IMG/VR virus record: IMGVR_UViG_3300006735_000001
Span: 1-64,000 of that record
DNA length: 64,000 nucleotides
DNA from: a virus
Reading direction: 5' to 3' (one strand)
Part shown: positions 5,763-62,197 of the stretch, piece after piece
Numbering within the stretch: the stretch's first letter is position 1
How the letters are laid out: the number at the start of each line of letters is the position of its first letter
Position numbers and translations under genes: made by a program
Notes under the pieces: generated by a model
Database searches by the model: none
What the model saw: only the letters and a program-made list of their open reading frames with translations
What the model was told of the DNA's origin: nothing

Positions 5763-6338
5763 TTAATATAAATATTTTGAATTTGAACCACAATTTCCTG
5801 AAGGACATGATATCTTATTCAATCTTTCTTTTGCATAATTATAAAGCTGCATACCCTGTGCTGATGATTGACAATACTCTACATTTGCTACAGCTGCATC
5901 AATCATAGTTCTAATATAATTCATCTCTGCTAATAGCTGTGCCTTATCAGAAGCAGGTTGACAATCCTGTACATCTAAATCACATAATACTTCATAATAA
6001 GTAGTTAGTAATTTAGTTACTCTCAAATGATTATATTCTACATATACTTTAGAGTTAGGAGATACACTATATTTAATAATATATATTCCATCAGGTATAT
6101 TTGCTTGTTTAGTACCACAATCAGTTGTTTGTAATGCTAATGTGCATGCAGTTAGACACATATCAAAAGATTTATCTACTTTGACTAATACAGGAACACT
6201 ATAACCAGGTAATGTAATTAATAACTCTTCACAATCTACTGCCAGGTCTTTAGAGTATTGACTTGTATCTTTAATACATAATAAATCACAATTTGATACC
6301 GTTGGTATTTCTAAACTTAATATATGTCTGCTTGCCAT
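5763..6338 (-). CDS. Conserved-type virion/tail protein (191 aa)
   Basis: The first gene after the late promoter at 6358..6374. It has a beta-rich N-terminal half (LSLEIPTVSNCDLLCIKDTS...LLITLPGYS) and an IPDGIYIIKYSVSPNSKVYVEYNHL block. The C-terminal half is helical (AEMNYIRTMIDAAVANVEYC) and ends in a Cys-rich tail (CPSGNCGSN). This architecture is familiar from uncharacterised structural genes next to fibre genes in Bacteroidota phages. A role in the tail or neck is inferred from position only. Confidence 0.6.
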   Translation of the reverse strand: MASRHILSLEIPTVSNCDLLCIKDTSQYSKDLAVDCEELLITLPGYSVPVLVKVDKSFDMCLTACTLALQTTDCGTKQANIPDGIYIIKYSVSPNSKVYVEYNHLRVTKLLTTYYEVLCDLDVQDCQPASDKAQLLAEMNYIRTMIDAAVANVEYCQSSAQGMQLYNYAKERLNKISCPSGNCGSNSKYLY

Positions 6339-6357
6339 TTTATCTTACTTTAATACA

Positions 6358-6374
6358 CTATATAAATAATATAC
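6358..6374 (-). promoter_or_regulatory. Late promoter element upstream of 191-aa gene
   Basis: On the minus strand it reads GTATATTATTTATATAG, a perfect GTATATT-N5-TATAG. It ends 20 nt before the ATG of the 191-aa gene. A 23-nt stretch around it is identical to that around the element at 56345..56361. It lies directly downstream of the terminator that follows the 582-aa gene, as expected for a new transcription unit. Confidence 0.75.
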
Positions 6375-6393
6375 AAAAAAAACAAGAATATAT

Positions 6394-6429
6394 AAAATAA
6401 AAAGAGCAGGAGTTTTGGACCCCTGCTCT
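6394..6429 (-). terminator. Intrinsic terminator after 582-aa gene
   Basis: On the minus strand an AGAGCAGG/CCTGCTCT 8-bp GC-rich stem with an 11-nt loop is followed by TTTTTATTTTAT. It lies 25 nt past the stop of the 582-aa gene and just before the next late promoter. Confidence 0.85.
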
Positions 6430-6453: not shown

Positions 6454-8202
6454 CTACCAGTATACATTTGATTCAATTGGCAAATCATTACCAGCTGCTT
6501 TAGCCCATGCCTGTATAGCTTCTAGTAAATCTTCAACGGCACCTTGACTTGCTGCGTCATCACATTTAACATAGATTTTATATTGGTATTGGTCATTATC
6601 AAATACTCCTGTAGGATTATTAAATCTTGGTACTGAATGCTGTACATAGTAAGCTCTATAAGTAGCCGTTCTGTCTACAGCAGCTAATAACTCATCAGAC
6701 ATTTCAATCTCTCTGATTCTAGCACTACTAGCATTACCTTGATTGTAAGGACTTTGTCTGTATCTTTCAGACATAATTAGTTCTCTAATTACTTCCTCAC
6801 CTTGTGTTTGTTGCATAGAACCTGGAGTTCTTGTAGCAACACCACAATCATTACATGGTTGACCAGTTTCGTCTAATTGAGAAACAATAATTTCAACTGG
6901 CTCAGCATTAAAGTGATCTCTTGTATCAAAAGAACAATTACCAAACACAGTATCAACATATGCTCCTACAAAACTAACTTTAGCTGATCTTTTTTCAACA
7001 CCATTTGGATCAGTTGATGGAACATAATTTCCAGCTCCTGCTTTTCCTAATGCTTGTGCAATTGAATAATATTCAGTTGTTACTTGTCCAGCAGCACTTG
7101 TAATAGTTACTTCTACTGATCCAGCAGAAACACTTGCCACTGTTAATACAGCATCAGAGTTACCACCTATTACAGTAGCAGTATCACCAACTGCAAAACC
7201 TGAACCTTCATTAAGAACCGTAACTGATTTAATTGCTCCGGTAGCAGCAATACTTGCAACAGTAAATTTAGCGTTTCCTCCACCACCTGTCACAGTAATT
7301 ACTTCACCAACTACATATCCTGCTCCACCAGAGTTACCAATAGCAACAGCTGTTACAGCACCAGAACCTGTAGTATTTACAGTTAATCCAGTACCTGCTC
7401 CAGCAGATGTAGTAGCAACATTGTTTGCAGCACTATAACCTGATCCTCCTGCTGTAATTGCACCTAAGCTAGCTGCAGCAGCAGTAATAGAATCAACTTT
7501 AACAGTAAGATCTTTTCCTAAACTTGGACTTACTGCAGTAACTGCTAATGCAGTAGATGCTACAGCATATCCTGTTCCAACACCTGCAGCAGCAATAGCA
7601 CCAAATGTTTTAACTCCGTCAGGATCTCCTTCTGCTACAAAAGGCTTAATTAATGGATCACTAAGAGCCATCTCAGCCATAGTAGCAATTACTAAAGTTG
7701 GATCAATGTATTCTTGTCCATCTACACAACATATGTTTGCTGAGTCAGCAATTGCATATGCATTGTGATTTAAAAATCTAAGTGCAGGTGAACCCTTCAC
7801 ATCAATTCTCATAAATTGAGTTTTACCACATGGCGCACAATCAGAAGCTAATGATAAGCTAGCTGTTGCTTGAGATGCAGTTAAACAATTTGCTTTCCAA
7901 AGTTTGTTAACATACCTAGGGTTAATTCCTTTGGATTTTACTGATTCTTTGTAACCCCCATGTCCTGGGTTGTTACCAATTGTATCTTTAGAATAAAAAG
8001 AACCTTGTACAATGTACGCTAGTTCTCCAGCTGTAAGCTGAGGTGGTACCCCTGCTCCACCTGGAGTAGCTACTGATTTCCAGTCACTACCACCTACTAA
8101 AGCTAATTGTCCTGCTGTTAAAGCAGATGAAGCTGTACCGGCTATGTTTTGAACAGAAGATACAACAAACGTTTTATTAAACGCATGATTAAAATAAGCC
8201 AT
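6454..8202 (-). CDS. Major structural protein with Gly-rich tandem repeats (582 aa)
   Basis: A virion protein by position: between the connector genes and the fibres, with its own promoter and terminator. Residues about 1-200 and 370-582 form the core. Residues about 205-361 hold tandem ~40-residue beta repeats of the form G(S/A)GYxxGExxTVxGGxxxAxFTVxSI...GAIxSVxVxN, built almost only of Gly, Ala, Thr, Val and Ser. The C-terminus (AIQAWAKAAGNDLPIESNVYW) is well structured. It could be a major tail-tube or decoration-type protein; no sheath signature is seen. The insert looks like a surface-displayed beta domain. Probably highly expressed. Confidence 0.65.
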   Translation of the reverse strand: MAYFNHAFNKTFVVSSVQNIAGTASSALTAGQLALVGGSDWKSVATPGGAGVPPQLTAGELAYIVQGSFYSKDTIGNNPGHGGYKESVKSKGINPRYVNKLWKANCLTASQATASLSLASDCAPCGKTQFMRIDVKGSPALRFLNHNAYAIADSANICCVDGQEYIDPTLVIATMAEMALSDPLIKPFVAEGDPDGVKTFGAIAAAGVGTGYAVASTALAVTAVSPSLGKDLTVKVDSITAAAASLGAITAGGSGYSAANNVATTSAGAGTGLTVNTTGSGAVTAVAIGNSGGAGYVVGEVITVTGGGGNAKFTVASIAATGAIKSVTVLNEGSGFAVGDTATVIGGNSDAVLTVASVSAGSVEVTITSAAGQVTTEYYSIAQALGKAGAGNYVPSTDPNGVEKRSAKVSFVGAYVDTVFGNCSFDTRDHFNAEPVEIIVSQLDETGQPCNDCGVATRTPGSMQQTQGEEVIRELIMSERYRQSPYNQGNASSARIREIEMSDELLAAVDRTATYRAYYVQHSVPRFNNPTGVFDNDQYQYKIYVKCDDAASQGAVEDLLEAIQAWAKAAGNDLPIESNVYW

Positions 8203-8287: not shown

Positions 8288-8304
8288 CTATAATAATAAT
8301 ATAC
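8288..8304 (-). promoter_or_regulatory. Late promoter element upstream of 582-aa gene
   Basis: Reads GTATATTATTATTATAG on the minus strand, a perfect GTATATT-N5-TATAG. It lies 86 nt upstream of the ATG, giving the longest leader of the family, and just past the stop of the 234-aa connector gene. Confidence 0.75.
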
Positions 8305-10484: not shown

Positions 10485-12104
10485 CTAGAATGATCCTCCT
10501 GTTATAGGGTTTCTCATTACAATTTTTAGAACTTTAGTTGGATCCTTAACCCAAATAGCTGGCATGGTCTGAGTCATATAAACTCTATATCCATTGAATT
10601 GTCCAGTAGAAGCAAAACCTTGAGTTCTTCCCATGTAGTCCATAGTACCATTTTGGTAGAACCACTTAAGTTGATTATCCCAAGAAAGTTTCAACAAGTG
10701 AATGTTGTCATTTCCTTCATCTGTTACATCAAAAATAATAAAGCTAAATGAACTTAGAGGTCTACCATCAATCAATGGATTCTCAATGTCATTAGTGTTT
10801 AAGTTATCAAATGCTGGATTTAATACAAACTTAACGTTAGCTAAGAATGGAATAGTAAAGCTTGTGTAAGCAAAACCAAAATCTAAATCCATACCAGAAC
10901 CTTGTACAGCTCCAATTTGTGATGCATTTTGAACTAAACCTGAACCATAAACTTCATCAGCAATTGCTTTGTTGATCAATTGCATACCACCAATACCTGT
11001 TTGTACAATTAATGATCTTTGTGGATCTGGCCCTTTAAACTCAACTTTACCTTGATAGAAGTTATAAAGTTCAGACTTAAACATATCAAGAGTAAATGAT
11101 GACTTGTTATATACTCTTTTGAAAGAGTTATCTAACTGTGACCATAAACCTACAGACAATCTAATATCATCTGGTCCGTCTTGTTTAATTCTACCACCTT
11201 TACCCCACATTAGGTAAGTTTCAATATCTGTTGCAATTTTAGATAAATGTGCTGCTTCCATATTTGTAATGAAAGTTCTTGTAAGAGTTCCATTTTCAAA
11301 TGCTTCTCTAGCACCAGCTTTACCCATTGTTGCTACTAACCCTTCAATACTAGGTACTGATGGATTGTTAGGATCATTATCAAAGTTTCTCCAAATCTCT
11401 GTAACAGGTACAGTTCCATCAGCATTCAATCCGCCTTTAATCATAAGATCAGCACGGCTTGAAATAGAATAGTGTACGTGTGCTTCAGCTCCTCCTACAA
11501 AATTGTAGAATTCTCTGAATCCAGAACCTGTTTCAATGTCAGAAAATCTTTCACCATATTCTCCTCTTGCAGAACCTTTTCTAAAGAACTTTGTTCCTTT
11601 AGCTAGATATTTATTATCTAAAGATGCTGCGTTGTTGTTATTTACTAATTGTACTTGATAAACATATCCATCACCTGCAGGAATAATATCATCTGCTGTA
11701 ATGTAAAGTTCAAGACCGTTATACTTGTCATAAGTGATAATATCACCGTGACCAAACGCTCTTTTGTTGATCTTAATCTTAAAGTAGGTTCCATCAATAC
11801 CTTTGCTAGCGTTAGCAGGTTCAATGTCAGCTACAATGTAAGGAAGATCTTGTGCAATAGGAGTCTGCCATTTGTACTCACCTCTAGCATTATCCACAAG
11901 TATTGTATTCTTTCCACCAAAGGAAGCCATTTGATATAAAGGCATTTCTACCTTTTGGGTCATTGCCCATAAATCAATTGGTCCCATATCCATAGGCTCA
12001 GGATTACCAAGCATTTGGGTAAGGTGATAAGAATCAACATGTGAACTAGCTTTGTAGCTTGTATCTCTTAGAAAGATCCCATTATTTAAAACCGGAGTTG
12101 CCAT
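10485..12104 (-). CDS. Putative major capsid protein (539 aa)
   Basis: Assigned mainly by context: TerL, portal, an acidic scaffold-like protein and then this gene, followed by a strong terminator. The 539-aa protein is mixed alpha/beta, lacks membrane or catalytic motifs, and has a long extended N-terminal arm, an internal beta-rich region (FKIKINKRAFGHGDIITYDK) and a C-terminal beta segment (KVLKIVMRNPITGGSF). This is compatible with an HK97-fold capsid protein with insertions, of the size seen in crAss-like phages. The start MATPVLNNGI is preceded by an A/T-rich leader. The fold itself cannot be shown by eye. Confidence 0.75.
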   Translation of the reverse strand: MATPVLNNGIFLRDTSYKASSHVDSYHLTQMLGNPEPMDMGPIDLWAMTQKVEMPLYQMASFGGKNTILVDNARGEYKWQTPIAQDLPYIVADIEPANASKGIDGTYFKIKINKRAFGHGDIITYDKYNGLELYITADDIIPAGDGYVYQVQLVNNNNAASLDNKYLAKGTKFFRKGSARGEYGERFSDIETGSGFREFYNFVGGAEAHVHYSISSRADLMIKGGLNADGTVPVTEIWRNFDNDPNNPSVPSIEGLVATMGKAGAREAFENGTLTRTFITNMEAAHLSKIATDIETYLMWGKGGRIKQDGPDDIRLSVGLWSQLDNSFKRVYNKSSFTLDMFKSELYNFYQGKVEFKGPDPQRSLIVQTGIGGMQLINKAIADEVYGSGLVQNASQIGAVQGSGMDLDFGFAYTSFTIPFLANVKFVLNPAFDNLNTNDIENPLIDGRPLSSFSFIIFDVTDEGNDNIHLLKLSWDNQLKWFYQNGTMDYMGRTQGFASTGQFNGYRVYMTQTMPAIWVKDPTKVLKIVMRNPITGGSF

Positions 12105-12172: not shown

Positions 12173-13495
12173 TTAAATTCTTTTAAAAATGTTTTGTGGC
12201 CTACTTAACTTTCTTCCAGCTGACTTACTTTTCTTTTCTGCTTCAGCTTGACTAACTCCTAATGATGCTCCTCCTGCATTTGATTGTTCAGTCTTTAATT
12301 TTCTAACTGTTTTCTCAACGCTTTTTTGAGCACCTTTATCCATTATTTTTGCTTTATATCCTTCTGGATCTTGCAACAACCATAATGCCTCAGAAATTAA
12401 TCCATAATTAGGCTCAACAAATTGATACTTTTCAAGTAAGTGTCCTAATAAATTAGTATTGTTACCACTTACTGATGGATAATTAGGTTGAACTAAGCCA
12501 TTATATAACATAGCTTGTGTCTTTCTGTCTACTTTGACATCACCTAGCTTACCATCTTTTAATGTATCATATACATTTTTCATATATGCTTTTGATGCTT
12601 GTTCTTGTTGTTTCTTTTTAAGCTCTTGTTCTTGAAGCTTTTGTGCAACAACTTTTTCTTGCATCTTATCTAACTTAGGTTTAAACTTATTTGCTTGTTG
12701 TTCTAACTTACCTAAGTCTTTCCAAATTTCAATTTCTTCTTGAATCTCTTCTTGAGTACCATAACCAGTAGCTCCTAAGTATTCAGATATTATTTTTTCT
12801 TGGTCAGTTGCTTTCTTAACATTTAATTGTTTAGTACTCTCTACTTGTGATAGAGTAGCAAATAAACCTTTCATATCTTTACCCCCATCAGCAACATATC
12901 TAGCAGCTATTTGAAGTTCTTGAGGAAGACTTTGAAAAAATTGCTTTGGTGTTTCTTGTCTCACCTGATTTGCTCTTTCTTCTAAGTTAGCCTCTATAAG
13001 CTCTTCCCAATCTTTTGCAGAATAATCTGTTAAAGATTTATCATCATCAAAAGGAACAATTTTTTCATCCTTAATCAATTTGTCAAATACATCAGATATT
13101 CCTGATATTGGTTTTCTACCTCTTTTAGATTTAGCTTCTGTTACTTCTTCTTCCTCATTATCTATATCTAAAGATTCTATAATATCTTTTCCTTCTTCTG
13201 TAGATTCTTTAGTTTCTTTGGTTTCTTCTACCTCTGTTTTATCTTCAGGAGTATCTGTTACCTTTGTTTCTTCTACATTGTCATCTACCTTAGCAGTTAT
13301 ATCATCTGCATCATCAGAATCAGGATCTAAAAACTTCATATCTGATTTTTTATTTATACCAGAAAAAATGTTTTTAGGGGTAGAGTCATCTTGAATTATA
13401 TCCGCACCTGTTGGGGCTACATTAAATATTTCATCTAGATTTACATCTACTTGTTCTACTTTACTTTTTACAGTTTTTGTTTCCGTATCACTCAT
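12173..13495 (-). CDS. Acidic scaffold-like protein (440 aa)
   Basis: Residues about 1-125 are extremely acidic and low-complexity (runs of D, E, T and K), followed by an AT-hook-like KRGRKP at about 125. The rest is charged helical and coiled-coil (KLEQQANKFKPKLDKMQEKV, QEQELKKKQQEQASK) with a basic C-terminal tail (KSAGRKLSRPQNIFKRI). The location between portal and capsid, the acidic helical body and the basic tail are typical of phage scaffolding proteins. It is preceded by a variant late promoter at 13526..13542. Confidence 0.65.
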   Translation of the reverse strand: MSDTETKTVKSKVEQVDVNLDEIFNVAPTGADIIQDDSTPKNIFSGINKKSDMKFLDPDSDDADDITAKVDDNVEETKVTDTPEDKTEVEETKETKESTEEGKDIIESLDIDNEEEEVTEAKSKRGRKPISGISDVFDKLIKDEKIVPFDDDKSLTDYSAKDWEELIEANLEERANQVRQETPKQFFQSLPQELQIAARYVADGGKDMKGLFATLSQVESTKQLNVKKATDQEKIISEYLGATGYGTQEEIQEEIEIWKDLGKLEQQANKFKPKLDKMQEKVVAQKLQEQELKKKQQEQASKAYMKNVYDTLKDGKLGDVKVDRKTQAMLYNGLVQPNYPSVSGNNTNLLGHLLEKYQFVEPNYGLISEALWLLQDPEGYKAKIMDKGAQKSVEKTVRKLKTEQSNAGGASLGVSQAEAEKKSKSAGRKLSRPQNIFKRI

Positions 13496-13525: not shown

Positions 13526-13542
13526 TTACATATATAATATAA
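13526..13542 (-). promoter_or_regulatory. Variant late promoter upstream of scaffold gene
   Basis: Reads TTATATTATATATGTAA on the minus strand. Against GTATATT-N5-TATAG it keeps TATATT and the 5-nt spacer but diverges in the second half (TGTAA). It ends about 31 nt before the scaffold ATG, within the 20-86 nt range of the perfect copies. Confidence 0.4.
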
Positions 13543-13613: not shown

Positions 13614-16364
13614 CTATTTTTTATTGTCAGATTTAGGAGAATCATATTTATTTTTGTTTTCTCTTGCTATTTGAAGTTTAGTGTCAGCTATTTGTTTTTG
13701 TGAAGCAATTTTTTCTCTTTCAACTTCTAATCTACTATTTTCCAGCATAGACTTATTAGTGTTTTGTTGACGTTGAAGATTCATTTGTTCTCTATATTGA
13801 GTTTGTTGTCTAATATCTTTCATAGCATCCTGATAATCAGACTGTTTGTTTTGATTTATATCAACCATAGAACCATAACCAGCTGATCTTATTTCAGCAA
13901 GAAGGACATCATTTTTTCTATCCTTTTCATTTTCATTTATCTCAACTTGAAGTTTTTGTTGCTCTTCTTGAGCTTTAGCTTGTATTTGTTGCTCTTGCAT
14001 CTGGCGTTGTTGATCCATTTCTTGCTGTCTTTGAGCTTGCATTCTTGTTTCAGCATCTTTAAGTATATCTGATACCTCTGCAATTGAGTCAGCTTTTACA
14101 ATATTTCCTAGTTCATAAATACTTGCACCTGTAGTATTATTTGTAAGAGCCATTTGTTTTAAGTTTTCTAGTATAGCTCTGTGGTTAGTTTTAGTAGTTG
14201 CAAATACATTAAAATCTCTAAGTAATAAATCAGTGCCATTAATAGTAAAATTAACCTTCTCAGCCTCTGTAGAGATATATTGTAATCTTATACTTGGTGT
14301 ATTACTATAATAATATTGTGCTAAATCAGTTCTCATCTGGTGAACTCTTGGCATTAAATGATCTGAATGCTGTACAAAATACATTTCTGTTTGAGCATAA
14401 GATTGCTGCATAGCTTGTACTACACCTGTTGCTGTTTGAGCTGATACAGCTCCTCCTAGACGTTGTGGATTTACACCTATAGCATCAAAACATTGTTGTT
14501 TAAAATAATTAGCTAATTGTATTCTTGACATTAATCTATTAGTTTGCTCCATGTTTAGAGTTTGATAATGATTAAAGTTAGTAGCATTTTCAGTATTAGT
14601 AATAGATGTATCTAATGGTAACATTTGAAAGTCTTTCATTGCTACAAATGCTTTAGCATAATTATTTTTACCCCAATCCTCACCCATTGAATGACGAGGT
14701 AAAGCATTTTGATCAAACATAATAACTGTACCTAATTCATCTATTAAGATATCTGCAATCTGGTTATTAACCATATTGTAACCAACCTGATAAGCTTTCA
14801 TTAAATCTACTAATGAAGTTGATCTTGTATTTCTATCTGAAAATACTCTTCCTTCTACAGGAAGCTTACAACCATATAATGAATTATTTCCTTTAAATTG
14901 AAAAGGTAATCTACCAGGCTTAGTTCTATTGATACCAATATATATTGGATTAATATTATCACCCATAGTAGATCTCCACATTGCTGGTAAATTTGGTCCT
15001 AATTTTACACCTCCCCATACTTCATTAATCCAAATCCAATCAATATGTTCACCACCTATTAAATTATCTTTAGTTTTACTTTTAAAGATTGATGTATCAT
15101 ATACTGCCTTTTTAGTAATTCTAAATGTTTCATCAACTATCTCTTGAGTTATTTCACCATCTTCTTCTATCTTAGTTAGATGTCCAACTTTTCTTTGAGT
15201 TTTCCAATATATGGTAGAAACTCTCATCAAGTTACCTTCACCCCACATTTGTACATCTTCTCCTTCATTTAATATTTCACTTAAAATATCACCACCATTA
15301 GCAGGATCATTATGATAATTACTTACAAATTGTCTATATGGTAAACCAGGCATTTCAGTGTTCCATGCATGAGATCTTTTTGGATCATAGTATGAACCAT
15401 CATTTTGGTATCCGTTAACTTGATATTGAGCAGATCTTGCTGGATATATTTTTTGTAGTGAGGTAAGTTGTTTCTCATCCATTAAATATCCATATCTATC
15501 TACTACATCTGATACAGTCATTAAATCTACTTTACCTACATAATTTGAATCTGAGATATATCTTTGTTCTGGAGACTTTTGGTAAAAGCTTAATACTGGG
15601 TTCCATAATTCTATATCATAATCATCTTCTAACATTCGGAAATGCCAAAACTCTCTGTCTGCAATAAGCATATCTCTAAATCCTCTTTCTTCAAGCTCTT
15701 GCATTTTAAATCTTTCCTCATCTACATTTAATTGATGAGTAGCCCACTCTTCTATCATACTTCTATATGACTTGCTAAAAAAGTCTTCAATCTCAGGTAA
15801 TGTTTTTAAATTTTCTGGCTTTAGTTGTTGTACAGCTTGTTCTGAACCAGGATCCATTCCCATTGCAATCATTTTTTGAAGCATTTCTGCTTCAGCATCT
15901 GCAAGTAAGGATTCTTCAACCTGCATTTTCTTTTGTTCTAACATCTCATTATAAGATGTATCATCTACTGCTCTAAATTGTACTTTAGTATATCTTTTAG
16001 CAAACTCACCTGATAAAACATTTACTACATTTGGAATAATTGGATAAAATTTTAACTCAAGTGCAGAATCATTTTCTTGAGTAAGAGTTTCCATTAAATC
16101 TTTATAGTCATTATCAGGCTCTATAATATAATCTGACTTATCAATAATACCTTTTGCTAGCTTGTAATTTTTTAGTAAACGCCTAGCATTATTACGTAAA
16201 AACTCAATACCTTGTAGTTCAAGCCAGTCTAAATTCCATGCCGCCCAATCATCTGTTTTATCTTTATATGGTAAAAACTGAATAGGTTGTGTTAGACTTG
16301 AAAACGTTGGTCCATCCTCAGCTTTAGCACCATTTTTAAGTTGCATTGCATTTAATACTCTCAT
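13614..16364 (-). CDS. Portal protein (916 aa)
   Basis: A long portal of the size seen in crAss-like and other Bacteroidota phages. It ends 1 nt upstream of where TerL stops, so the two form one unit. The middle holds a region with portal-like helices and turns (AYQVGYNMVNNQIADILIDE, then FDAIGVNPQRLGGAVSAQTA, then GVVQAMQQSYAQTEMYFVQH). Residues about 775-916 are a Gln-rich coiled coil (QQEMDQQRQMQEQQIQAKAQ). Portal forms the dodecameric DNA channel and docks TerL. The assignment rests on order and overall character; the sequence is too diverged for a residue-level proof. Confidence 0.8.
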   Translation of the reverse strand: MRVLNAMQLKNGAKAEDGPTFSSLTQPIQFLPYKDKTDDWAAWNLDWLELQGIEFLRNNARRLLKNYKLAKGIIDKSDYIIEPDNDYKDLMETLTQENDSALELKFYPIIPNVVNVLSGEFAKRYTKVQFRAVDDTSYNEMLEQKKMQVEESLLADAEAEMLQKMIAMGMDPGSEQAVQQLKPENLKTLPEIEDFFSKSYRSMIEEWATHQLNVDEERFKMQELEERGFRDMLIADREFWHFRMLEDDYDIELWNPVLSFYQKSPEQRYISDSNYVGKVDLMTVSDVVDRYGYLMDEKQLTSLQKIYPARSAQYQVNGYQNDGSYYDPKRSHAWNTEMPGLPYRQFVSNYHNDPANGGDILSEILNEGEDVQMWGEGNLMRVSTIYWKTQRKVGHLTKIEEDGEITQEIVDETFRITKKAVYDTSIFKSKTKDNLIGGEHIDWIWINEVWGGVKLGPNLPAMWRSTMGDNINPIYIGINRTKPGRLPFQFKGNNSLYGCKLPVEGRVFSDRNTRSTSLVDLMKAYQVGYNMVNNQIADILIDELGTVIMFDQNALPRHSMGEDWGKNNYAKAFVAMKDFQMLPLDTSITNTENATNFNHYQTLNMEQTNRLMSRIQLANYFKQQCFDAIGVNPQRLGGAVSAQTATGVVQAMQQSYAQTEMYFVQHSDHLMPRVHQMRTDLAQYYYSNTPSIRLQYISTEAEKVNFTINGTDLLLRDFNVFATTKTNHRAILENLKQMALTNNTTGASIYELGNIVKADSIAEVSDILKDAETRMQAQRQQEMDQQRQMQEQQIQAKAQEEQQKLQVEINENEKDRKNDVLLAEIRSAGYGSMVDINQNKQSDYQDAMKDIRQQTQYREQMNLQRQQNTNKSMLENSRLEVEREKIASQKQIADTKLQIARENKNKYDSPKSDNKK

Positions 16365-18551
16365 TTATCTAAAGTTTTTGAATCCAGATCTTCTTGTATT
16401 TGAATTTCTATTAGTTTTTTTACGCCCAATATTTTTGAACGGACTATACTTTAATTTAGTAATTTTTTGTGACTTAACCAAGGATTTCTCTTCAGTTTCA
16501 CGTCTTTTACTATATCCCCTGTTTGACTGTTGAATTTTAGAAAATGCCACCAATGCACAAAAAGAAACCATTCTATCCACATTCAAACCAGGATGATATG
16601 CCATCATTTCTTTAATTAACATTTGATCTGGTATACGTTCAATACCAAAAGTTTGTGAAATAACATTACCTTCAACATCTAACTCTTCATCTATAACCTC
16701 TCTTAAAAATTCTATACCATAAGATATTAAATGACTTTTAAATAAAGTACCTGTATTTTTCCAACCATACTCTTGATATACTGTTCTATTAGATCCTAGA
16801 TCTTTTAAAAATAATATCTGTTGTTTAGGTACTAAATATCTTTGTTTTTTTCTAGCAATCATATGTTGAATAAATAAAGAAATATTATTCTCCACTATTG
16901 TCCATGCATTATACCACTCTATGATATATTCTAATCTTTCATGTGTTTTATTAATATCATCATATCTACCACACCATGATGCTACTACTTTATCTTTTTC
17001 TATAAATTGTTCTATATCTCCCGCTTCATTAGTACGTGTTACTTCTGTAGCATTTTTATACACAAAGATACTACATAATGAATCTGACGTAGTAGTCTTT
17101 CCTTCTGACACAGGATCAATAGATGCATAGTATGCTCCAAATTGAGGATCTTTGATTGGACGTTCCCATACAACTATACTACCTGTTTTATCTTGTTGTC
17201 TTTTATTTACTGGAAATTCAGATATAGGTAATTTGGTTGTTCTTTTTGGGACAATACCTTTTTCATCCCTATCTAAAGTAATTAATTCATATGGATATGA
17301 TTTTTCTTCTATACGTTTTAATTGTCTACTTAATAGTCCCTGTGGAAAAATTGATTCTTTTCTATAAGCAAATGCTTCAGAAATATTTAATGGCTTCTGA
17401 GATATTCTAAGTTGAAACTGTTCAGAGTTTAATTCAACCTTCCATCTTTCTCTTTCTAATTTAATAGCTGCAATTGCTTCATCAATTAAACTATTACCGT
17501 ATTCATCAATGTATGGTGGCATAGACCATTGTTCAGGAATAAATAAACCTGCCATACCAATTGTTCCATCAGCATCTATTAAATTTGTTTCTACTGCATA
17601 TATATCATTTCCAACTGGATTAAGTATCATATCTTTAAGTGGATTACATTGTGATAAATCACCCACTGATCCTGCTGCAATAAACATACCTGTAGTTACC
17701 ATACCAGAAGACATAGCAGGACGTAAATACTCATAAGTTTCTGACATTTTAGGTGCTATACCTGCTTCCTCATGAAAAAAATATGTACATGGTCCACCTA
17801 CACCAGTAGTAGCATTTTTCTCAAATGAAGCACCTTGTATTTTAGATTTTAAACCTCTAGAAGTTTTTCTATTATTAATTTTAACTTCTATCTGTTGTTG
17901 CCATAATAATACTTTTTCTGGATTACTAGGTCTATACCAGGCAGTATGCTCATTTAAAAAAGTTTTATATTCTTCTAAAAATTTCCAAGAACCTTTATCA
18001 TTTATATAATCTTTTAATGAAGCCCCAATCTTACATATAGATCCTTCTTCAAACCAATACTGGTTAATTATTTTAGCCATATGAAAATATGAAGAAGCTA
18101 TTTGCCTTTTCTTTAATATGGCTGCATGTTGATTATTTAACTCAGCAATAATTTCATATAATGCCATATGATATTGTGCATCTCTTACTTTTGCAAAACC
18201 ATATTTTTTTTCTTCTTTATCAAAAATAGGTAAAAAGTTAAGCCACATATAGTAATCTCTGGTAAGATACCATTCATTATTACCTTCTTTATATATTACT
18301 CCTTCTCTACATTTAATCTTTTCAAATTCCCAATAAGCAGTAAAGTCTTTTGACCTAAAAGGTTTATTACAGTAATGTCCTTCTTCATTAAATATTTTAG
18401 CTTGTTCATTAAAAGACCAGGCAATCTTTGTAAAATTATATTCACCTGGTTCTTTAAATATACTTTCTAAGTATTCTCTAAAACTTAAATCACTTTCAAA
18501 TGTAGTAGTAGTCCATTTTTTATTTTCATATGTAGGTATGTTTCTACTCAT
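16365..18551 (-). CDS. terL: Terminase large subunit (728 aa)
   Basis: DNA-packaging motor ATPase and nuclease. A terminase-type Walker A variant (KKRQIASS, about 147-154) and Walker B (CTYFFHEEAG, Glu about 261-262) are visible in the N-terminal ATPase domain. A coupling-type segment (MFIAAGSVGDLS) follows. The C-terminal RNase H-like nuclease starts at YYASIDPVSEGKTTTSDS (Asp 478), continues with IVENN, and has a final conserved block (NVDRMVSFCALVAF). The C-terminus is a basic tail. The start overlaps the GroES stop by 8 nt, and the stop abuts the portal start. Confidence 0.9.
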   Translation of the reverse strand: MSRNIPTYENKKWTTTTFESDLSFREYLESIFKEPGEYNFTKIAWSFNEQAKIFNEEGHYCNKPFRSKDFTAYWEFEKIKCREGVIYKEGNNEWYLTRDYYMWLNFLPIFDKEEKKYGFAKVRDAQYHMALYEIIAELNNQHAAILKKRQIASSYFHMAKIINQYWFEEGSICKIGASLKDYINDKGSWKFLEEYKTFLNEHTAWYRPSNPEKVLLWQQQIEVKINNRKTSRGLKSKIQGASFEKNATTGVGGPCTYFFHEEAGIAPKMSETYEYLRPAMSSGMVTTGMFIAAGSVGDLSQCNPLKDMILNPVGNDIYAVETNLIDADGTIGMAGLFIPEQWSMPPYIDEYGNSLIDEAIAAIKLERERWKVELNSEQFQLRISQKPLNISEAFAYRKESIFPQGLLSRQLKRIEEKSYPYELITLDRDEKGIVPKRTTKLPISEFPVNKRQQDKTGSIVVWERPIKDPQFGAYYASIDPVSEGKTTTSDSLCSIFVYKNATEVTRTNEAGDIEQFIEKDKVVASWCGRYDDINKTHERLEYIIEWYNAWTIVENNISLFIQHMIARKKQRYLVPKQQILFLKDLGSNRTVYQEYGWKNTGTLFKSHLISYGIEFLREVIDEELDVEGNVISQTFGIERIPDQMLIKEMMAYHPGLNVDRMVSFCALVAFSKIQQSNRGYSKRRETEEKSLVKSQKITKLKYSPFKNIGRKKTNRNSNTRRSGFKNFR

Positions 18552-22752: not shown

Positions 22753-23052
22753 TTATTTTACATTTTTTGCAGCATTTTCCATTGCTTGTTTAAATTTTTT
22801 TGCTTCTTCGGAATTAGGTTTAACTCCTTCATTTTGTTTTTGTGCCATAAACATTTGAGCTTGCATTCTCTTAGCTCTTGATTCTTCTATCTCACATAAC
22901 AATGCTTCATATTTTGCTTGAGTCTTTAAGTGAGGAATGTTATCTGTGTAGAATTTAGTAATCTCTTTTCTACGTTGAGTAAGTTCTTCTTGAGAAAGTT
23001 GCGGTTTCTTTTCATTCAAAGAATCAATTCTCTTCTTGGTTTTTTCAGTCAT
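22753..23052 (-). CDS. Charged coiled-coil protein (99 aa)
   Basis: An almost entirely helical, highly charged protein (LSQEELTQRRKEITKFYTDN, then LCEIEESRAKRMQAQMFMAQ). No signal peptide or membrane segment. It lies 1 nt upstream of the endolysin gene and downstream of an AT-rich 77-bp gap that carries a weak promoter-like GTATATA. Function unknown; a lysis accessory or virion role is possible by position. Confidence 0.6.
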   Translation of the reverse strand: MTEKTKKRIDSLNEKKPQLSQEELTQRRKEITKFYTDNIPHLKTQAKYEALLCEIEESRAKRMQAQMFMAQKQNEGVKPNSEEAKKFKQAMENAAKNVK

Positions 23053-24246: not shown

Positions 24247-24443
24247 TACTTTTTACTTTTATAACCTCCACCAGCTGCTTTATATCTTTTAGCTAGCATT
24301 TGTGCCTTACGTGCAGACCATTGTCCAGCACCACCACCTTTGCTCCCGGCTTTAATTGAATTAAACAATCTTTTACGCATTCCTGGTTTAGTATAGTTTC
24401 CAGAACTATTTACCGTACTTTTCTTTTTCTTTTTTACTGCCAT
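24246..24443 (-). CDS. Small basic phage protein (65 aa)
   Basis: After a Lys-run N-terminus comes KRLFNSIKAGSKGGGAGQWS followed by ARKAQMLAKRYKAAGGGYK. The KxGSKGGxxGQWSARKAQ...YKxxGGGYK pattern belongs to a small conserved family I recall from aquatic bacteria and phages, of unknown function. It is coupled to both neighbours by TAATG overlaps. Probably binds nucleic acid. Confidence 0.75.
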   Translation of the reverse strand: MAVKKKKKSTVNSSGNYTKPGMRKRLFNSIKAGSKGGGAGQWSARKAQMLAKRYKAAGGGYKSKK

Positions 24444-24788: not shown

Positions 24789-24805
24789 CTATAAAGACAA
24801 TATAC
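24789..24805 (-). promoter_or_regulatory. Late promoter element for leftward operon
   Basis: Reads GTATATTGTCTTTATAG on the minus strand, a perfect GTATATT-N5-TATAG with the least AT-biased spacer of the family, which makes a chance AT match less likely. It lies 26 nt upstream of the first gene of the leftward late block, at the edge of the divergent control region. Confidence 0.75.
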
Positions 24806-24903
24806 TAAAAATTGCAACTTAATAAAAGTCCTTGGCTCAGAAATTTTACTTTTCCCCTATACAAATGTTGTGTGTTTGGCGTGAACAAGGGGTTTCTACA
24901 GTT

Positions 24904-25300: not shown

Positions 25301-25765
25301 ATGATTAATGTCATAACTGGTACTAAAGGTGCCAACAAGGGTAAAACTATCCAAGTAAGTAAAGACCCAAAGATAGGGTTTGTAACTGTTCAATCAGAGA
25401 CAGATGTCTTACGTAATGGCTGGTTTGATACCAAGAAGCTTACTACTAATGTACGTGGTCCAATTGAAAAGCTCCAAAAGATAGGAGACTGGCAAGATTA
25501 TGTGCAGGGTGGTAAGATTATTGTGGTGGAATCACTCACACCAATCAATAGCTCTGATAAGTCTCAAGGACTTAAATTAGCAGGGGAAACAGGAGTAGTG
25601 TGTATGAAAGACGGAAGTCCTATCTACAGACAAACTGAATTCACCAAAGAGCCAAGTGCTCACAACGTCTATATTCAACACACTAATATAGATGAAATAC
25701 GCAAAGCTAATGGCATTGAAACTAAAGCAGTAGCTTTAGAAGACTATGTAAAGCAACAAGCGTAA
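25301..25765 (+). CDS. Early protein, paralogue of the 193-aa protein (154 aa)
   Basis: The first early gene. Residues about 62-137 (GGKIIVVESLTPINSSDKSQ, GLKLAGETGVVCMKDGSPIY, RQTEFTKEPSAHNVYIQHTN) align closely with the 193-aa protein at 29201..29782 (GKIIVRESLEPFSKNDPDRD, LKKAGDTGIICAVQGQPIYR). The core looks like a small beta barrel. This copy lacks the acidic tail of its paralogue. It is followed at once by a strong terminator, so it is probably an abundant monocistronic early product. Function unknown; an OB-like nucleic-acid binder is one idea. Confidence 0.75.
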   Translation: MINVITGTKGANKGKTIQVSKDPKIGFVTVQSETDVLRNGWFDTKKLTTNVRGPIEKLQKIGDWQDYVQGGKIIVVESLTPINSSDKSQGLKLAGETGVVCMKDGSPIYRQTEFTKEPSAHNVYIQHTNIDEIRKANGIETKAVALEDYVKQQA

Positions 25766-26670: not shown

Positions 26671-26748
26671 ATGTTAGTCTCTTCCTCTATAGGATAAGAG
26701 CCATATTACCCGCAATATTGCAATCAACCACTAATATACTAAATCGTT

Positions 26749-28409: not shown

Positions 28410-28563
28410 ATCATGGAAGAATAAAGAGTCTATTAAATCAAGCTTTGGCTATACTATGAATGAGATGTATAATCTTAATGACATAGAGTTAGCTAAAGAA
28501 AGAGATGATAACTTTGCATTTCTAAGATTATTAAGAGATCATGTCTACAAAAATGAAACTTGA
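28369..28563 (+). CDS. Small early protein (64 aa)
   Basis: The start MPKLTQELIRSHYKSWKNKE at 28369 is chosen over an upstream ATG that would overlap the preceding gene by 83 nt. The body is helical and charged (NLNDIELAKERDDNFAFLRL). It overlaps the HTH gene by 23 nt. Function unknown. Confidence 0.5.
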   Translation: MPKLTQELIRSHYKSWKNKESIKSSFGYTMNEMYNLNDIELAKERDDNFAFLRLLRDHVYKNET

Positions 28564-28798
28564 TAGATTTGGAATAGTAAAGCATATAGTGCTTACTGAT
28601 CCAGAGATATCTATCCAAGCAAAGGGTTTGTATAGCGTATTATGTTGCTATGCAAATGCTAATAGAGTATGTTGGCCCTCATTAAGTACACTAGCTGATG
28701 TCACTGACACAAGTCAATCATCAATCAAAAGGTACTTATTAGAGCTAAAAACTCACAATATAATACATAGAGAAGGAAGAAAGCTAAGAATTATTTAA
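28541..28798 (+). CDS. Winged helix-turn-helix regulator/initiator-like (85 aa)
   Basis: A complete HTH domain of the HTH_36 type common in phage replication initiators and regulators: SIQAKGLYSVLCCYANANRV, then CWPSLSTLADVTDTSQSSIK (recognition helix) and RYLLELKTHNIIHREGRKLR (wing). Only the DNA-binding domain is present. Likely an early transcription regulator or a replication accessory. Confidence 0.8.
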   Translation: MSTKMKLDRFGIVKHIVLTDPEISIQAKGLYSVLCCYANANRVCWPSLSTLADVTDTSQSSIKRYLLELKTHNIIHREGRKLRII

Positions 28799-28892
28799 AC
28801 GTTAGCTATATTACTGCTGTTTATTTTTAATAAGGTCCATATATGAGCTATCTTGGATGAGTCAGAACGGATTGAATTGTTATCTTTACTAC

Positions 28893-29200: not shown

Positions 29201-29782
29201 ATGCAAAACAATAATGTAAACGTTGTGGCTGATGACATGAACAATGTTATCCGTCAATCACAGAACAATTCAGACTATGGTTTCATTAGATTGGAACAAC
29301 AAAGAACAGTATTTACTAATACAGGATGGGTAAAGGCAATGCCTATGTCTACTTTATTACATGGTACTATGGATTCTTTAGCTAGCTTAAACTTAAATGT
29401 TGATAGTGAACTACCAGGTAAAATCATTGTAAGAGAGTCATTAGAGCCATTTAGTAAGAATGATCCTGACAGAGATTTAAAGAAAGCCGGAGATACAGGG
29501 ATTATCTGTGCTGTACAAGGTCAACCTATTTATAGGAAAACATTTTTTGTAGCTGATGTAACAGCTCAAGATGTATTAGTTGCTCATGATAATGGAGATG
29601 CCATTAAAGAAGCTAATGGTACAACTAATAAAACTGTAAAAGCAACAGCAACACCAGCTGAAGCATTTGGATTACAAGATTCAGATGAAATAGAAGCTGA
29701 TAACACTCAAGAAGATGGTACTCCACCATTAGATGAAGTGGAAGAAGTAGTTGAAGAAACTGTTGAAAGTTTTGAACTATAA
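29201..29782 (+). CDS. Abundant-type early protein with acidic tail, paralogue of 154-aa protein (193 aa)
   Basis: Residues about 65-145 match the 154-aa early protein (shared GKIIV.ESL.P, GLKLAGETG/DLKKAGDTG, G.PIYR, I.EANG). The N-terminus has RLEQQRTVFTNTGWVKAMPM. Residues about 150-193 form an acidic tail (DSDEIEADNTQEDGTPPLDE, EETVESFEL) ending in hydrophobic residues, a layout seen in single-strand DNA-binding proteins. It is followed by a strong terminator. The SSB idea is inference only; the family is unassigned. Confidence 0.75.
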   Translation: MQNNNVNVVADDMNNVIRQSQNNSDYGFIRLEQQRTVFTNTGWVKAMPMSTLLHGTMDSLASLNLNVDSELPGKIIVRESLEPFSKNDPDRDLKKAGDTGIICAVQGQPIYRKTFFVADVTAQDVLVAHDNGDAIKEANGTTNKTVKATATPAEAFGLQDSDEIEADNTQEDGTPPLDEVEEVVEETVESFEL

Positions 29783-29882: not shown

Positions 29883-30422
29883 ATGTTATCAAAGAAACAA
29901 ATCCAAAAATTAGAACTCAGCAAAAAACAAGATCAATTAAGTAAGCGTAAAGAACGTTATGAATATCTAGGTATTCTAAATGAATATCAGTTACATCCAC
30001 CTTCTATAATAAATAACTTTGAGTATTGTAAACTAAATCCATATCAACATTTTTTGTTTAAACGTGTACTACATGGTTTAAGAGTTTATAAACCTGAAGA
30101 AGTTAAGAAACTACATTGGGATAAGAAAAGAAGAATTACTAAGGTATGGAAACGTGCTCAGAAAGAACTGAATGCATGGAAACAATATCTTTGTAATAAG
30201 AAAATAAATTTGTATCTTAGGAAGACTTTTAAATGTAGTCCTTTAGCCTTATATATAGCAAGTATACCAGCTGAAGAAACATTAGAAGATTATACTAACA
30301 CAATGACTTTCAAAGAATTAGGTATTACATATGAAGATATTGTACTAAAATTTATGTCATTGGGTTTATTACCTAAGAACTACTTTACTTTAGATCCTAA
30401 TGGCTATCAGAAAAGCATCTAA
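29883..30422 (+). CDS. Uncharacterised basic protein (179 aa)
   Basis: A helical, Lys-rich protein: QKLELSKKQDQLSKRKERYE, then KKLHWDKKRRITKVWKRAQK, ELNAWKQYLCNKKINLYLRK, and a C-terminal MTFKELGITYEDIVLKFMSL. The strong positive charge and position ahead of HNH and helicase genes suggest nucleic-acid binding. No family recognised. Confidence 0.6.
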   Translation: MLSKKQIQKLELSKKQDQLSKRKERYEYLGILNEYQLHPPSIINNFEYCKLNPYQHFLFKRVLHGLRVYKPEEVKKLHWDKKRRITKVWKRAQKELNAWKQYLCNKKINLYLRKTFKCSPLALYIASIPAEETLEDYTNTMTFKELGITYEDIVLKFMSLGLLPKNYFTLDPNGYQKSI

Positions 30423-31957: not shown

Positions 31958-32209
31958 ATGGGTAGAATGAAAGAACTATTTATGGAACAACAGCAAAACT
32001 CTGAATATCGTGGAGCACATGATGCTATGATACACGGTCTTGCTAGAACATCAGTTGAAGAATTTATTCCTGATATTGAACATGTTTGTCCTAATTGCTA
32101 TGGTAAAAATAAATTACATAGTATGATTAGGAGTGAAACAGAAGCTGAATGTTTAGACTGCGGTCAAGAATTTATAATTATAGAAAAAAATACACTTAGA
32201 TTTAAATAA
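31958..32209 (+). CDS. Zinc-ribbon protein (83 aa)
   Basis: The C-terminal half is a zinc ribbon (HVCPNCYGKNKLHSMIRSET, then CLDCGQEF; C-x2-C...C-x2-C). The N-terminal half is helical (RMKELFMEQQQNSEYRGAHD). The stop shares a base with the next start (TAATG). Probably a small nucleic-acid-binding or regulatory protein. Confidence 0.7.
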   Translation: MGRMKELFMEQQQNSEYRGAHDAMIHGLARTSVEEFIPDIEHVCPNCYGKNKLHSMIRSETEAECLDCGQEFIIIEKNTLRFK

Positions 32210-32349
32210 TGACAATAAAAGAAATGAGAAATCAAATGATAGGTGTTGCACTTAAAAGATCTAAAACTAAATTAGAAGCTGCAGAACTATTAGGAATAAC
32301 AGAAAAAACATTATATAACTATTTAAAAGAAATAAAAAATGGGAAGTAA
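32209..32349 (+). CDS. Fis-like helix-turn-helix peptide (46 aa)
   Basis: MTIKEMRNQMIGVALKRSKT, then KLEAAELLGITEKTLYNYLK. The second part is the Fis/NtrC-type HTH (xxAAELLGIxxxTLYxxLK) with almost nothing else. It would dimerise through the N-terminal helix and bind DNA. The TAATG overlap with the upstream gene supports translation. A minimal phage nucleoid or regulatory protein. Confidence 0.75.
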   Translation: MTIKEMRNQMIGVALKRSKTKLEAAELLGITEKTLYNYLKEIKNGK

Positions 32350-46452: not shown

Positions 46453-48450
46453 ATGAAGAAACATTGGGTAATGGATTATGAAACCTTAGCTAATTGTTTT
46501 GTTGCTGTATTTGAAGATTATAAATCTCTTGAAACAAAAATATTTGTTGTACACGATCTACAAAATGATTTTGGTAAATTCATACTCTTTCTAAAAGATA
46601 ACATAAGAAAAAAAGAATGGCATATATCCTATAATGGATTAGCATTTGATGCGCAGGTCACTCACTATATATTAGAAAATCATACAAAATGGGATGCAGA
46701 CTTAAAAGGTTCTGAGATAGCTTGTGCTATATATAACTACGCACAAATTTGTATACAAAAGTCAAATAATAAAGAATGGGGTGATTACCCACAATGGAAA
46801 ATGGAAATAGGTCAGATAGATTTATTTAAATTACATCATTGGGATAATCCTGCTAAACGTTCAAGTCTTAAATGGATACAATATAGCATGGATTGGGAAA
46901 ACATTCTTGATATGCCTATTCATCATGAGACAGAAATTACTACTAAAGAAGAGTTAGATACTATTATTGGTTATTGTATAAATGATGTAAGATCCACAAA
47001 GGAAATATTTAAAAGATCTATATCACAAATTAAATTAAGGAAAGAACTAACCTCTACATATGGAATTAATCTTTTTAGTGCTTCAGAACCTAGAATAAGT
47101 AAAGAAATATTTGGTTACTATCTATCACGTAATCTTAATATACCAAAAAGAGATCTCAAGAAGATGAGAACTTATAGAGATGTATTAAAGATTAAAGATA
47201 TATTATTATCATACATTTCTTTTACATCACCAGAGTTTAAAGTATTACATGAAAGATTTAAGTCTCTTGATATAGATGCTAGCAAATTAAAAGGTAGCTT
47301 TAAGTATAGAGTTAATTATAAAGGTGTAAATACAGACTTTGGTTTAGGTGGTGTACACGGTGCTAGAAAGAAAGGAGTCTATGAATCTAATGATGATGTT
47401 GTTATAATATCTTCTGATGTTACCAGTTTCTATCCTAATCTAGCTATAAAGAATCAATGGTCTCCTGGACACTTCCCTAAAGAAGAGTTTTGTGATCAGT
47501 ATGAGTGGTTCTTTGAAGAGCGTAAGAAGATACCTAAGAGTAATCCAATGAACTATGTATATAAGATTATACTTAATTCAACTTTTGGTCTTAGTAATGA
47601 TGATAAAAGTTTCTTTTATGATCCAGAGCTTTGTGCTAGAATAACTATCAATGGACAGTTAACACTGATGATGTTATATGAACAGATAATGGAAAGAATT
47701 CCTGATGCAATTGCTTTAATACATAATACAGATGGTATAGAAACTATAATTCCTAGGAAAGATATGGATCTTTATATGGAAATATGTAAAGAATGGGAAG
47801 ATACAACCAATCTTAATCTTGAGCATGATGAATATCAGAAGCTTGTATTAGCTGATGTCAATAATTATATTGGTGTGAATAATTATATAGATGTTGACAT
47901 TACTAAGTGGAGAGAAGTTAAACAGAGTCAGCCTCATTATCTATTTAAGGTAGAGAATGACAAGTTTAGCTTTGCTCCTGTCAAGTTAAAAGGTCGTTTT
48001 GATTTCCATAATTTACAATTACACAAAAATAAATCAAAGCTTGTAATTCCTAAAGCTATATATCAATACTTTGTAAATAATGTTTTACCTGAAGAGTATT
48101 TAACTCAGAATAAAAATATTCTTGATTATTGTATTGGTGGAAAATCTAAAGGAGATTGGCAACAACAAGCTAGATTTATTAAAGATGGTGTATATACAGA
48201 AGAATCTTTACAAAAAATAAATAGATATTTTATATCTAACACGGGTGTAAAGATTGTCAAAGTTAATAAGAATGATAGACGTGAGATACAACTTGAATCT
48301 GGTAAATGGCAACAAACTATTTTTAATAAGATGGAAGTAAGACCTAAATGGGATAACTATGACCTTAATAAAGGTTATTATTTAGCTGCTATTGAAAAAG
48401 AGATCAATGATATCATATCTATTAGTACAAATCAACTTAAATTATTTTGA
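46453..48450 (+). CDS. Family-B DNA polymerase with 3'-5' exonuclease (665 aa)
   Basis: Exo I MDYET (D8, E10), Exo II ISYNGLAFDAQ (N61, D66) and Exo III YCINDVRS (Y174, D178) are intact. Polymerase motif A is SSDVTSFYPNLA (D322), motif B is NYVYKIILNSTFGLS (K371...N375) and motif C is IHNTDGIET (N425-T-D427). In motif C the first Asp of the usual DTD is Asn; the second, catalytic one remains. The ATG at 46453 is preferred because the upstream in-frame ATG sits in a terminator. Its end overlaps the SPL-like gene. Confidence 0.92.
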   Translation: MKKHWVMDYETLANCFVAVFEDYKSLETKIFVVHDLQNDFGKFILFLKDNIRKKEWHISYNGLAFDAQVTHYILENHTKWDADLKGSEIACAIYNYAQICIQKSNNKEWGDYPQWKMEIGQIDLFKLHHWDNPAKRSSLKWIQYSMDWENILDMPIHHETEITTKEELDTIIGYCINDVRSTKEIFKRSISQIKLRKELTSTYGINLFSASEPRISKEIFGYYLSRNLNIPKRDLKKMRTYRDVLKIKDILLSYISFTSPEFKVLHERFKSLDIDASKLKGSFKYRVNYKGVNTDFGLGGVHGARKKGVYESNDDVVIISSDVTSFYPNLAIKNQWSPGHFPKEEFCDQYEWFFEERKKIPKSNPMNYVYKIILNSTFGLSNDDKSFFYDPELCARITINGQLTLMMLYEQIMERIPDAIALIHNTDGIETIIPRKDMDLYMEICKEWEDTTNLNLEHDEYQKLVLADVNNYIGVNNYIDVDITKWREVKQSQPHYLFKVENDKFSFAPVKLKGRFDFHNLQLHKNKSKLVIPKAIYQYFVNNVLPEEYLTQNKNILDYCIGGKSKGDWQQQARFIKDGVYTEESLQKINRYFISNTGVKIVKVNKNDRREIQLESGKWQQTIFNKMEVRPKWDNYDLNKGYYLAAIEKEINDIISISTNQLKLF

Positions 48451-49280
48451 TTAAAGTCCAGAAGACTAAGACTCTAATTACTAAACCTAATAACAATAGT
48501 GCAAACTGCATAGCTCCCAATATTATCTACGGATGTTTTGGAGGCTGTGTAGACACTTATTGTTATATGTCTAGATATAATGGTAAAAGAGTTTTCGTCA
48601 ATAAAAACGTAGATGAAATTTTTGAGTCTGTTGTTGAATGGGAAAAATTCTTTAATAAAGAACCAGATCAGCAAGACCCTATATATACTATGGTAGATGT
48701 TGCATGTAACTCAGATTTAGTTCTAATGCAAAAGCATATGCCAGAGCCTTTAATTGATTACCTTAAGCGTTATGATAATCATCCTCAGTTAAATAGTACT
48801 ATGGCTACTAAGTATCCGGGGTTATTAAAGTTAGATGTAAATCACTTTAATAAACCACCACGGGTCCGTGTTAGTCTTATGCCTCAGAAGTATTCTAATA
48901 TATTAGAACCCAAGATGCAGCAAATTACAAAGCGCATTATGGATGTTGAACGTTTAAAAGACTTAGGATGGCAAGTTCATCTTAATTATAGTCCTTTAGT
49001 TTTTTATCCCGGATGGAAAGAAGAATATGATAGTTTATTTAAAGAGGTTAAAATTAATGCAGGTATAAATAAATGTGAGGTAATCGCATTAACTAATCAT
49101 AAAAAGCAAATGGCTAAAGCTTCATCAGAAGCCCAAGAATTGATGAGACGTTCTTATGAAGTTAAGAATCAGTCAGGAGTAATGAGATATCCTTTAGAGC
49201 ATAAAGGTAGATTACTTAAAGAATTCAAGAAAATATATAGTAGATATTTTCCATTAAATACAATAAGATATATATTTTAG
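48447..49280 (+). CDS. Spore-photoproduct-lyase-like radical SAM protein (277 aa)
   Basis: NIIYGCFGGCVDTYCYMSRY supplies three Cys in C-x3-C-x4-C spacing, one residue longer than the canonical C-x3-C-x2-C plus Y. It is followed by MVDVACNSDLVLMQ and LNYSPLVFYPGWKEEYDSLF, which match the SPL family body (V.F.P....GW...Y..LF). SPL-type enzymes repair thymine dimers by radical chemistry; phage homologues may repair or modify DNA. It starts with TTG overlapping the polymerase stop (TTGA); no ATG lies upstream of the Cys motif. Confidence 0.78.
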   Translation: MIKVQKTKTLITKPNNNSANCIAPNIIYGCFGGCVDTYCYMSRYNGKRVFVNKNVDEIFESVVEWEKFFNKEPDQQDPIYTMVDVACNSDLVLMQKHMPEPLIDYLKRYDNHPQLNSTMATKYPGLLKLDVNHFNKPPRVRVSLMPQKYSNILEPKMQQITKRIMDVERLKDLGWQVHLNYSPLVFYPGWKEEYDSLFKEVKINAGINKCEVIALTNHKKQMAKASSEAQELMRRSYEVKNQSGVMRYPLEHKGRLLKEFKKIYSRYFPLNTIRYIF

Positions 49281-56344: not shown

Positions 56345-56361
56345 CTATATAAATAATATAC
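56345..56361 (-). promoter_or_regulatory. Late promoter element for second late unit
   Basis: GTATATTATTTATATAG on the minus strand, a perfect GTATATT-N5-TATAG. A 23-nt core here is identical to that at 6355..6377, 50 kb away. Ends 21 nt before the ATG of the 81-aa gene. Confidence 0.78.
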
Positions 56362-56533
56362 AAATTTTGTCTCACTTAACCAACATTAAGAGTCAGATTA
56401 ATATTATATTTGTTTTTAAATAAAATTTACTAGATTAGTTTTTTGTGTATGATCTATTTTTCTTACATTGATAATATCTAGTAGCTGCACTTCTTTTTGA
56501 TGTGTGGCTTTTTAATCCTATATACCATATACT

Positions 56534-62180: not shown

Positions 62181-62197
62181 CTATAAATATAATATAC
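62181..62197 (-). promoter_or_regulatory. Late promoter element for envelope cassette
   Basis: GTATATTATATTTATAG on the minus strand, a perfect GTATATT-N5-TATAG, ending 37 nt before the barrel-like gene ATG. Confidence 0.75.

Follow-up and report, generated by a model that had tools for sequence, protein, structure and literature searches.

The virus record IMGVR_UViG_3300006735_000001 comprises 113,577 bp (113.6 kb) with a terminal repeat of 112 bp, and the window analyzed here is its positions 1 to 64,000. Its genes form a leftward block containing terminase, portal and capsid genes of the Crassvirales type, as identified by PHROG and homologue searches, and a rightward block containing helicases, a primase, a DNA polymerase and other replication genes. 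The leftward, minus-strand block includes the major capsid gene within a late structural block (10485..12104; PHROG 11589, E=2e-30), the portal gene (13614..16364; PHROG 6547, E=9e-88; homologues in crAss001 and phi14:2) and the Crassvirales-type large terminase subunit (16365..18551; PHROG 6681, E=1e-60). A 1969-aa protein (genome 62242..68151), homologous to crAss001 gp49 and phi14:2 gp76, is encoded across the right edge, and its C-terminal part falls within the window (62242..64000, minus strand). It is followed on the late strand, outside the window, by the gene for a 4769-aa crAss-type virion RNA polymerase (RNAP; genome 68155..82464, or 5155-19464 of locus L006) with the catalytic motif DHDGD (DFDID in relatives). 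Within the replication block, a 277-aa protein (48447..49280, plus strand) resembles spore photoproduct lyase (Pfam SPL, E=1e-16). Elsewhere, inside a hypothetical gene, 139 bases at 24260..24398 share 79% identity with Pelagibacter phage HTVC035P, a possible gene exchange.

Two crAss tail-ring proteins, CrAss_Ring_1 and CrAss_Ring_2, both scored over cut-off. Together with the terminase, the portal and the giant virion RNAP they give the genome hallmark genes of Crassvirales, with membership assigned by genes rather than by a tree for formal rank. Portal and terminase searches against IMG/VR each returned at least 600 matches, indicating a large clade. Judged by its gene content, the phage is a member of this large clade of uncultured water phages in IMG/VR related to Crassvirales. 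Throughout, "late" is deduced from gene content and from the gene order shared with crAss001 and phi14:2. Assignment of start codons was mechanical, and several of the compared relatives are fragments.

Late-strand motif copies

Five exact copies of GTATATT-N5-TATAG lie on the minus strand of the window at the positions originally predicted, where 100 dinucleotide shuffles yielded a mean of 0.08 copies and never more than one; the remaining 49.6 kb of the 113.6-kb genome holds no further exact copy. Allowing two mismatches gave 27 matches against 26.8 in shuffles, which is chance level, so the signal resides only in near-perfect copies. Each exact copy sits close upstream of a predicted late gene. 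The copy at 6358..6374 (GTATATTATTTATATAG, predicted to span -13 to +4) ends 19 nt before a 191-aa gene (5763..6338) and has positional homologues in many relatives, and a terminator-like hairpin with an 11 bp stem and a T-rich tail (6403..6429, minus strand) would end the upstream unit just before it. The copy at 8288..8304 (GTATATTATTATTATAG) precedes a 582-aa head-closure-like gene (6454..8202) by 85 nt, and relatives carry GTATATTATTATAGTRA at the same place. At 24789..24805, GTATATTGTCTTTATAG lies 25 nt before a 106-aa gene that opens the unit toward the lysis, terminase and portal genes, and at 62181..62197, GTATATTATATTTATAG lies 36 nt before a 411-aa gene (60909..62144). The copy at 56345..56361 repeats the core GTATATTATTTATATAG 20 nt before an ATG at 56324, and falls inside an open reading frame only under a spurious GTG start. 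It shares with the 6358 copy the predicted 23-nt identity, TTTGTATATTATTTATATAGTGT.

A degenerate copy at 13526..13542 (minus strand; TTATATTATATATGTAA), listed originally as a variant, precedes a 440-aa gene (12173..13495) and the major capsid gene. It is a true positional homologue: two relatives (G002 and G004) have GTATATTATATATGTAA, and two others (L071 and L072) have the perfect GTATATTATATATATAG before the same gene of ~431-440 aa. The original inventory was exact for its five copies and overlooked weaker ones outside the window, at 90974 (ending in TATAA), 110480 (ending in TATAC) and 106204 (GTAAATTATAAATGTAA).

The prediction also withstood the refutation test it had proposed for itself. 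A matrix trained on nine relatives and applied at a threshold of 13 bits, where 0.65 sites are expected per Markov genome, found eight late-strand sites and no early-strand site in this genome, three of the eight being the weaker copies outside the window. Over all ten genomes it found 56 late intergenic sites, about nine late "in-gene" sites, at least one of which reflects a wrong start call, and no early-strand site.

The bias toward late genes extends across the clade. Counted over 1.83 Mb from 143 family loci, the exact motif pointed in the late direction at 66 sites and the opposite way at three, and most sense sites fell 19-29 nt ahead of a start codon. Spacers of 4, 6, 7 or 8 nt between the half-sites occurred zero times in the same loci, which bears out a spacer fixed at 5 nt. 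Across ten genomes, some of them partial, 43 of 157 late upstream regions contained GTATATT, as did one of 122 early ones; none of the 122 had it together with the TATA half. Because the relatives' counts include orthologous sites and overlapping loci, they are not independent; cluster weighting corrects for this in part. De novo expectation maximization with no prior input recovered GTATATTAT..aTaTA from late regions only (log-likelihood ratio 349, against 54 for shuffled letters). Across IMG/VR, about 70 of the roughly 80 listed matches to the extended motif TTTGTATATTATNNNTATAG lay in loci with family genes, all of them intergenic, and among the matches listed those outside family loci looked random. 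Strand specificity, distance to the start codon, fixed spacing and conservation across a large clade thus strongly support the idea of a shared late promoter, and on this comparative evidence the 17-letter motif is very probably a real late-gene start signal common to a large crAss-like family, with starts that are predicted.

The same de novo search applied to early regions returned as its best 17-mer a mix of single conserved intergenic blocks, which we rejected as a shared promoter. One early-strand block, CTCTTCCTCTATAGGATAAGAG..TACCCGCAATATTGC at ~26680..26745 (plus strand, upstream of 26749), is kept in three relatives (G003, G004 and G015) and is a possible early promoter or regulatory site. 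GTTAGCTATATTACTGC at ~28800..28820 (plus strand, upstream of 28857) is conserved before an early gene of ~90 aa in most relatives, and in two relatives a host-type promoter, TTG-N21-TATCTTTG, lies near the start codon of the ~90-aa early gene.

A probable host-type architecture with a variant box

Alignment of the sites revealed a conserved core, GTATATTRT, in the left half, and a right half relaxed to T-R-T-A (TATAG 14, TATAA 8, TGTAT 5, TGTAC 3, and others) in which the second position is a purine at 40 of 41 sites. Further upstream, TTK begins 22 nt before the G, equivalent to 20 nt before TATATT, in 11.5 of 19 clusters compared with a mean of 3.0 per offset, and TTG at this -33 distance accounts for 4.2 of the 19 clusters compared with 0.3. 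Homologues of the 56345 site keep the TTG (56381..56383 here) in 21 of 22 cases while much of the surrounding sequence varies, and the 24789 copy has TTT at 24825..24827. Some sites have a weak -33 element or none: it is missing at 8288 and at 62181, which has TTA in place of TTK, and the TTT of the 6358 class (6394..6396 here) overlaps the T-rich tail of the terminator-like hairpin, so TTK is not universal. Placed on the ruler of mapped Flavobacterium johnsoniae promoters, TATATTRT would occupy -12 to -5, the purine +1, and TATAG -1 to +4.

The leaders of the phage genes point to where such a promoter might be read. Only 2% carry a Shine-Dalgarno signal, the same as in a control stretch; they are A-rich at -13 to -11, with A at -3 at a frequency of 0.69. 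The pattern matches that of Cellulophaga phages, and leaders that are A-rich and free of Shine-Dalgarno signals also agree with F. johnsoniae (PMC6847099). Bacteroidota phages carry relatives of the SNF2-type helicase and of other genes. The genome bins holding relatives number five and are of mixed phyla, only two being Bacteroidota, and because the bins are mixed the host, in Bacteroidota, is one that we infer. The large subunit of ribonucleotide reductase was discarded as a host marker, as its best matches lie in unrelated phages and are uninformative. The closest named capsid relative is Leptolyngbya phage Lbo-JY46 (L182, L229 and L230), whose leaders likewise lack a Shine-Dalgarno signal and which has TAnnTTTG in 10 of 25 late and 4 of 23 early regions; these features are more in line with a Bacteroidota host than with the cyanobacterium given as its host.

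The motif was originally thought to be unlike a host -33/-7 promoter, a view that the alignment with mapped Flavobacterium promoters does not support. In the -7 box of F. johnsoniae, T-12, A-11, T-8, T-7, T-6 and G-5 are nearly invariant, and transcription starts 4-5 nt beyond (PMC6847099). In common with promoters of the Bacteroidota primary sigma (sigma-ABfr; TTTG/TAnnTTTG, or TAHHTTTG in F. johnsoniae), the phage motif has T-12 A-11 and T-8 T-7 and a purine at the predicted +1. The TTG/TTTG that such promoters carry about 19-20 nt upstream has a counterpart, TTK about 20 nt upstream, at many but not all of the phage sites. TATATT occurs in all sites by construction, as they were selected for GTATATT, and GTATATTAT was found de novo. 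By contrast, R-6 T-5 replaces T-6 G-5 in nearly all sites, so that four of the six near-invariant host bases agree; since T-6 and G-5 are not both present, we do not class the motif as a canonical primary-sigma promoter. The conserved G at -13 and the conserved positions +2 to +4, with TA at +2/+3, lie outside the published host consensus.

The deviation from TAHHTTTG is confined to -6 and -5, which suggests that an alternative sigma of the host or a factor made by the phage may be involved. Promoter class SM5 of F. psychrophilum, TAnnTTGY, has been ascribed to an alternative sigma (PMC9723704), and the TATATTGT of the 24789 class fits it at the same position, with G-6 and Y-5. Most other phage classes have TATATTAT, with A at -6, and do not fit TAnnTTGY.

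The phages also appear to carry unmodified host-type promoters. A canonical TTT-N19-21-TATATTTG lies 30 nt upstream of a 99-aa late-strand gene (22753..23052, minus strand), is kept in seven compared genomes, and is a predicted second promoter class. As this canonical TATATTTG persists in the same phages, the variant box is not merely a phage spelling of the host box. Cultured Crassvirales place TTG-N-TAnnTTTG promoters at the same site before late genes: these occur in the late regions of crAss001 and phi14:2 and are missing from the early regions of phi14:2. They share the TTG-type -33 element with the motif described here, whereas their box is canonical TAnnTTTG and no GTATATT stands upstream of their late genes. 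A scan for the sigma-70 consensus stayed at shuffle level (88 against 98.9, and 117 against 110.3) and was set aside.

Candidate readers of the late genes

A crAss-type RNAP encoded outside the window had been put forward as one possible reader, and such an enzyme is indeed encoded there: the family profile of the 4769-aa protein matches the phi14:2 virion RNAP (6vr4) at E=7.4e-15 (hhalign 99%), at more than twice the length of the 2180-aa phi14:2 enzyme. Its role as reader of the late motif fares less well and we judge it improbable, even though newly made polymerase would be present late in infection. Its gene lies in the late block, and its counterpart in Cellulophaga phage phi14:2 reportedly transcribes early genes, host RNAP being credited with the late ones (PMC7886860, PMC10136315). 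Before the early genes that such an enzyme would read, the motif is all but missing, as the counts above show. A virion RNAP would also leave the -33/-7 spacing unexplained. The resemblance of TATAG to the ends of T7 and SP6 promoters, which had suggested a single-subunit polymerase with TATAG at -4 to +1, proves superficial, and we give this reading almost no credence: TATAG is the degenerate part of the motif, T7/SP6-type promoters are one contiguous block rather than half-sites with a free spacer, and Pfam and PHROG scans of most genes above ~120 aa, most giants and many smaller ones detected no T7-like RNA_pol domain. A dedicated PF00940 search of the genome was discarded because its controls were silent. 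That the element is no promoter at all, but a conserved operator, a DNA site used in packaging or replication, or part of the 5' leader, is very improbable. Conservation does run beyond the predicted start, and the motif is known here from sequence, not transcripts. Against this stand its strict orientation, several copies per genome usually 19-37 nt before start codons, the -33-like element at a fixed distance and the upstream terminator at 6403..6429.

A diverged phage protein, sigma-like or sigma-appropriating, that would bring host core RNAP to GTATATTRT-N3-TRTA in the manner of T4 gp55 deserves more weight, although we consider it unlikely. In its favor, the motif is nearly confined to the clade, its differences from the host box fall precisely on T-6 G-5, besides the added G and downstream positions, and several conserved early or middle proteins are without a known fold. 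On the other hand, the overall layout, -33 spacing included, is still that of a host promoter, and the phage-specific sigma originally envisaged did not materialize: with working controls, no match to sigma region 2 or 4 exceeded cut-off, one sub-threshold match to region 4_2 covering 18 positions. Since gp55 is itself strongly diverged, a missing sigma match is no proof of absence. The T4 late promoter (TATAAATA) is, like the present motif, a short AT-rich late-only element near the start; it differs in having no -35 element where the phage motif has a -33-like one, and no gp55-like gene was detected here.

Among the early products, an 85-aa winged-helix protein (HTH_36; 28541..28798, plus strand; Pfam PF13730, E=1.6e-10), conserved in seven of seven relatives tested, is a possible regulator, though PHROGs favor replication initiation. 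A 179-aa helical protein with no known fold (29883..30422, plus strand), conserved at 53-78%, can be named as a speculative candidate for a phage factor. For the early unknown with the strongest conservation, a predicted structure (pLDDT 66) gave no PDB match better than E=1.6, and profile searches of the other early unknowns against PDB returned nothing convincing. A Fis-like helix-turn-helix peptide of ~47 aa (~32207..32347, plus strand) shows a weak Sigma70_r4_2 match (E=0.012) and has a clear homologue only in G013. Two early proteins (25301..25765 and 29201..29782, plus strand) are paralogous. The longer one ends in acidic residues, ESFEL here and ETFEL in relatives, which recall the tails of single-strand-binding proteins.

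A model for late transcription in the clade

Taken together, we consider it probable that the motif is the core of a late promoter in crAss-like phages of Bacteroidota, read by the host multisubunit RNAP in a -33/-7 manner. Host RNAP acting on a variant host-type promoter is the simplest reading, and the sequence by itself does not choose among an unmodified holoenzyme, an alternative sigma and a phage factor. The virion RNAP would read the early genes first, and host RNAP would then read the late genes through the variant promoter, with TTK about 20 nt before TATATT serving as the -33 element and TATATTRT, preceded by its conserved G, as a -7 box of variant sequence covering -12 to -5. T-R-T-A(G) would span the transcription start from -1 to +4, with the purine at +1. 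A host alternative sigma, for which the SM5 box TAnnTTGY is a close parallel, or a phage factor may tune the polymerase to the late genes.

A more specific proposal, which we advance only tentatively, is that the clade retargets host RNAP by means of a phage factor. With this factor T-6 G-5 would no longer be required and GTATATTRT-N3-TRTA would become the late promoter, giving three separately read classes. If true, one genome would contain an early class read by the virion RNAP, a host-type class (TATATTTG) and a late class (TATATTRT). We found no late-gene promoter motif of crAss-like phages in the literature searched, and neither PMC7886860 nor the review PMC10136315 uses the word "promoter". 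Kept across many uncultured genomes, the motif would constitute a testable late-gene switch, and it may serve to mark late transcription units in metagenomic contigs of the clade. Which polymerase reads the late genes after the virion RNAP could be put to a direct test with a single promoter in a single flavobacterial reporter strain.
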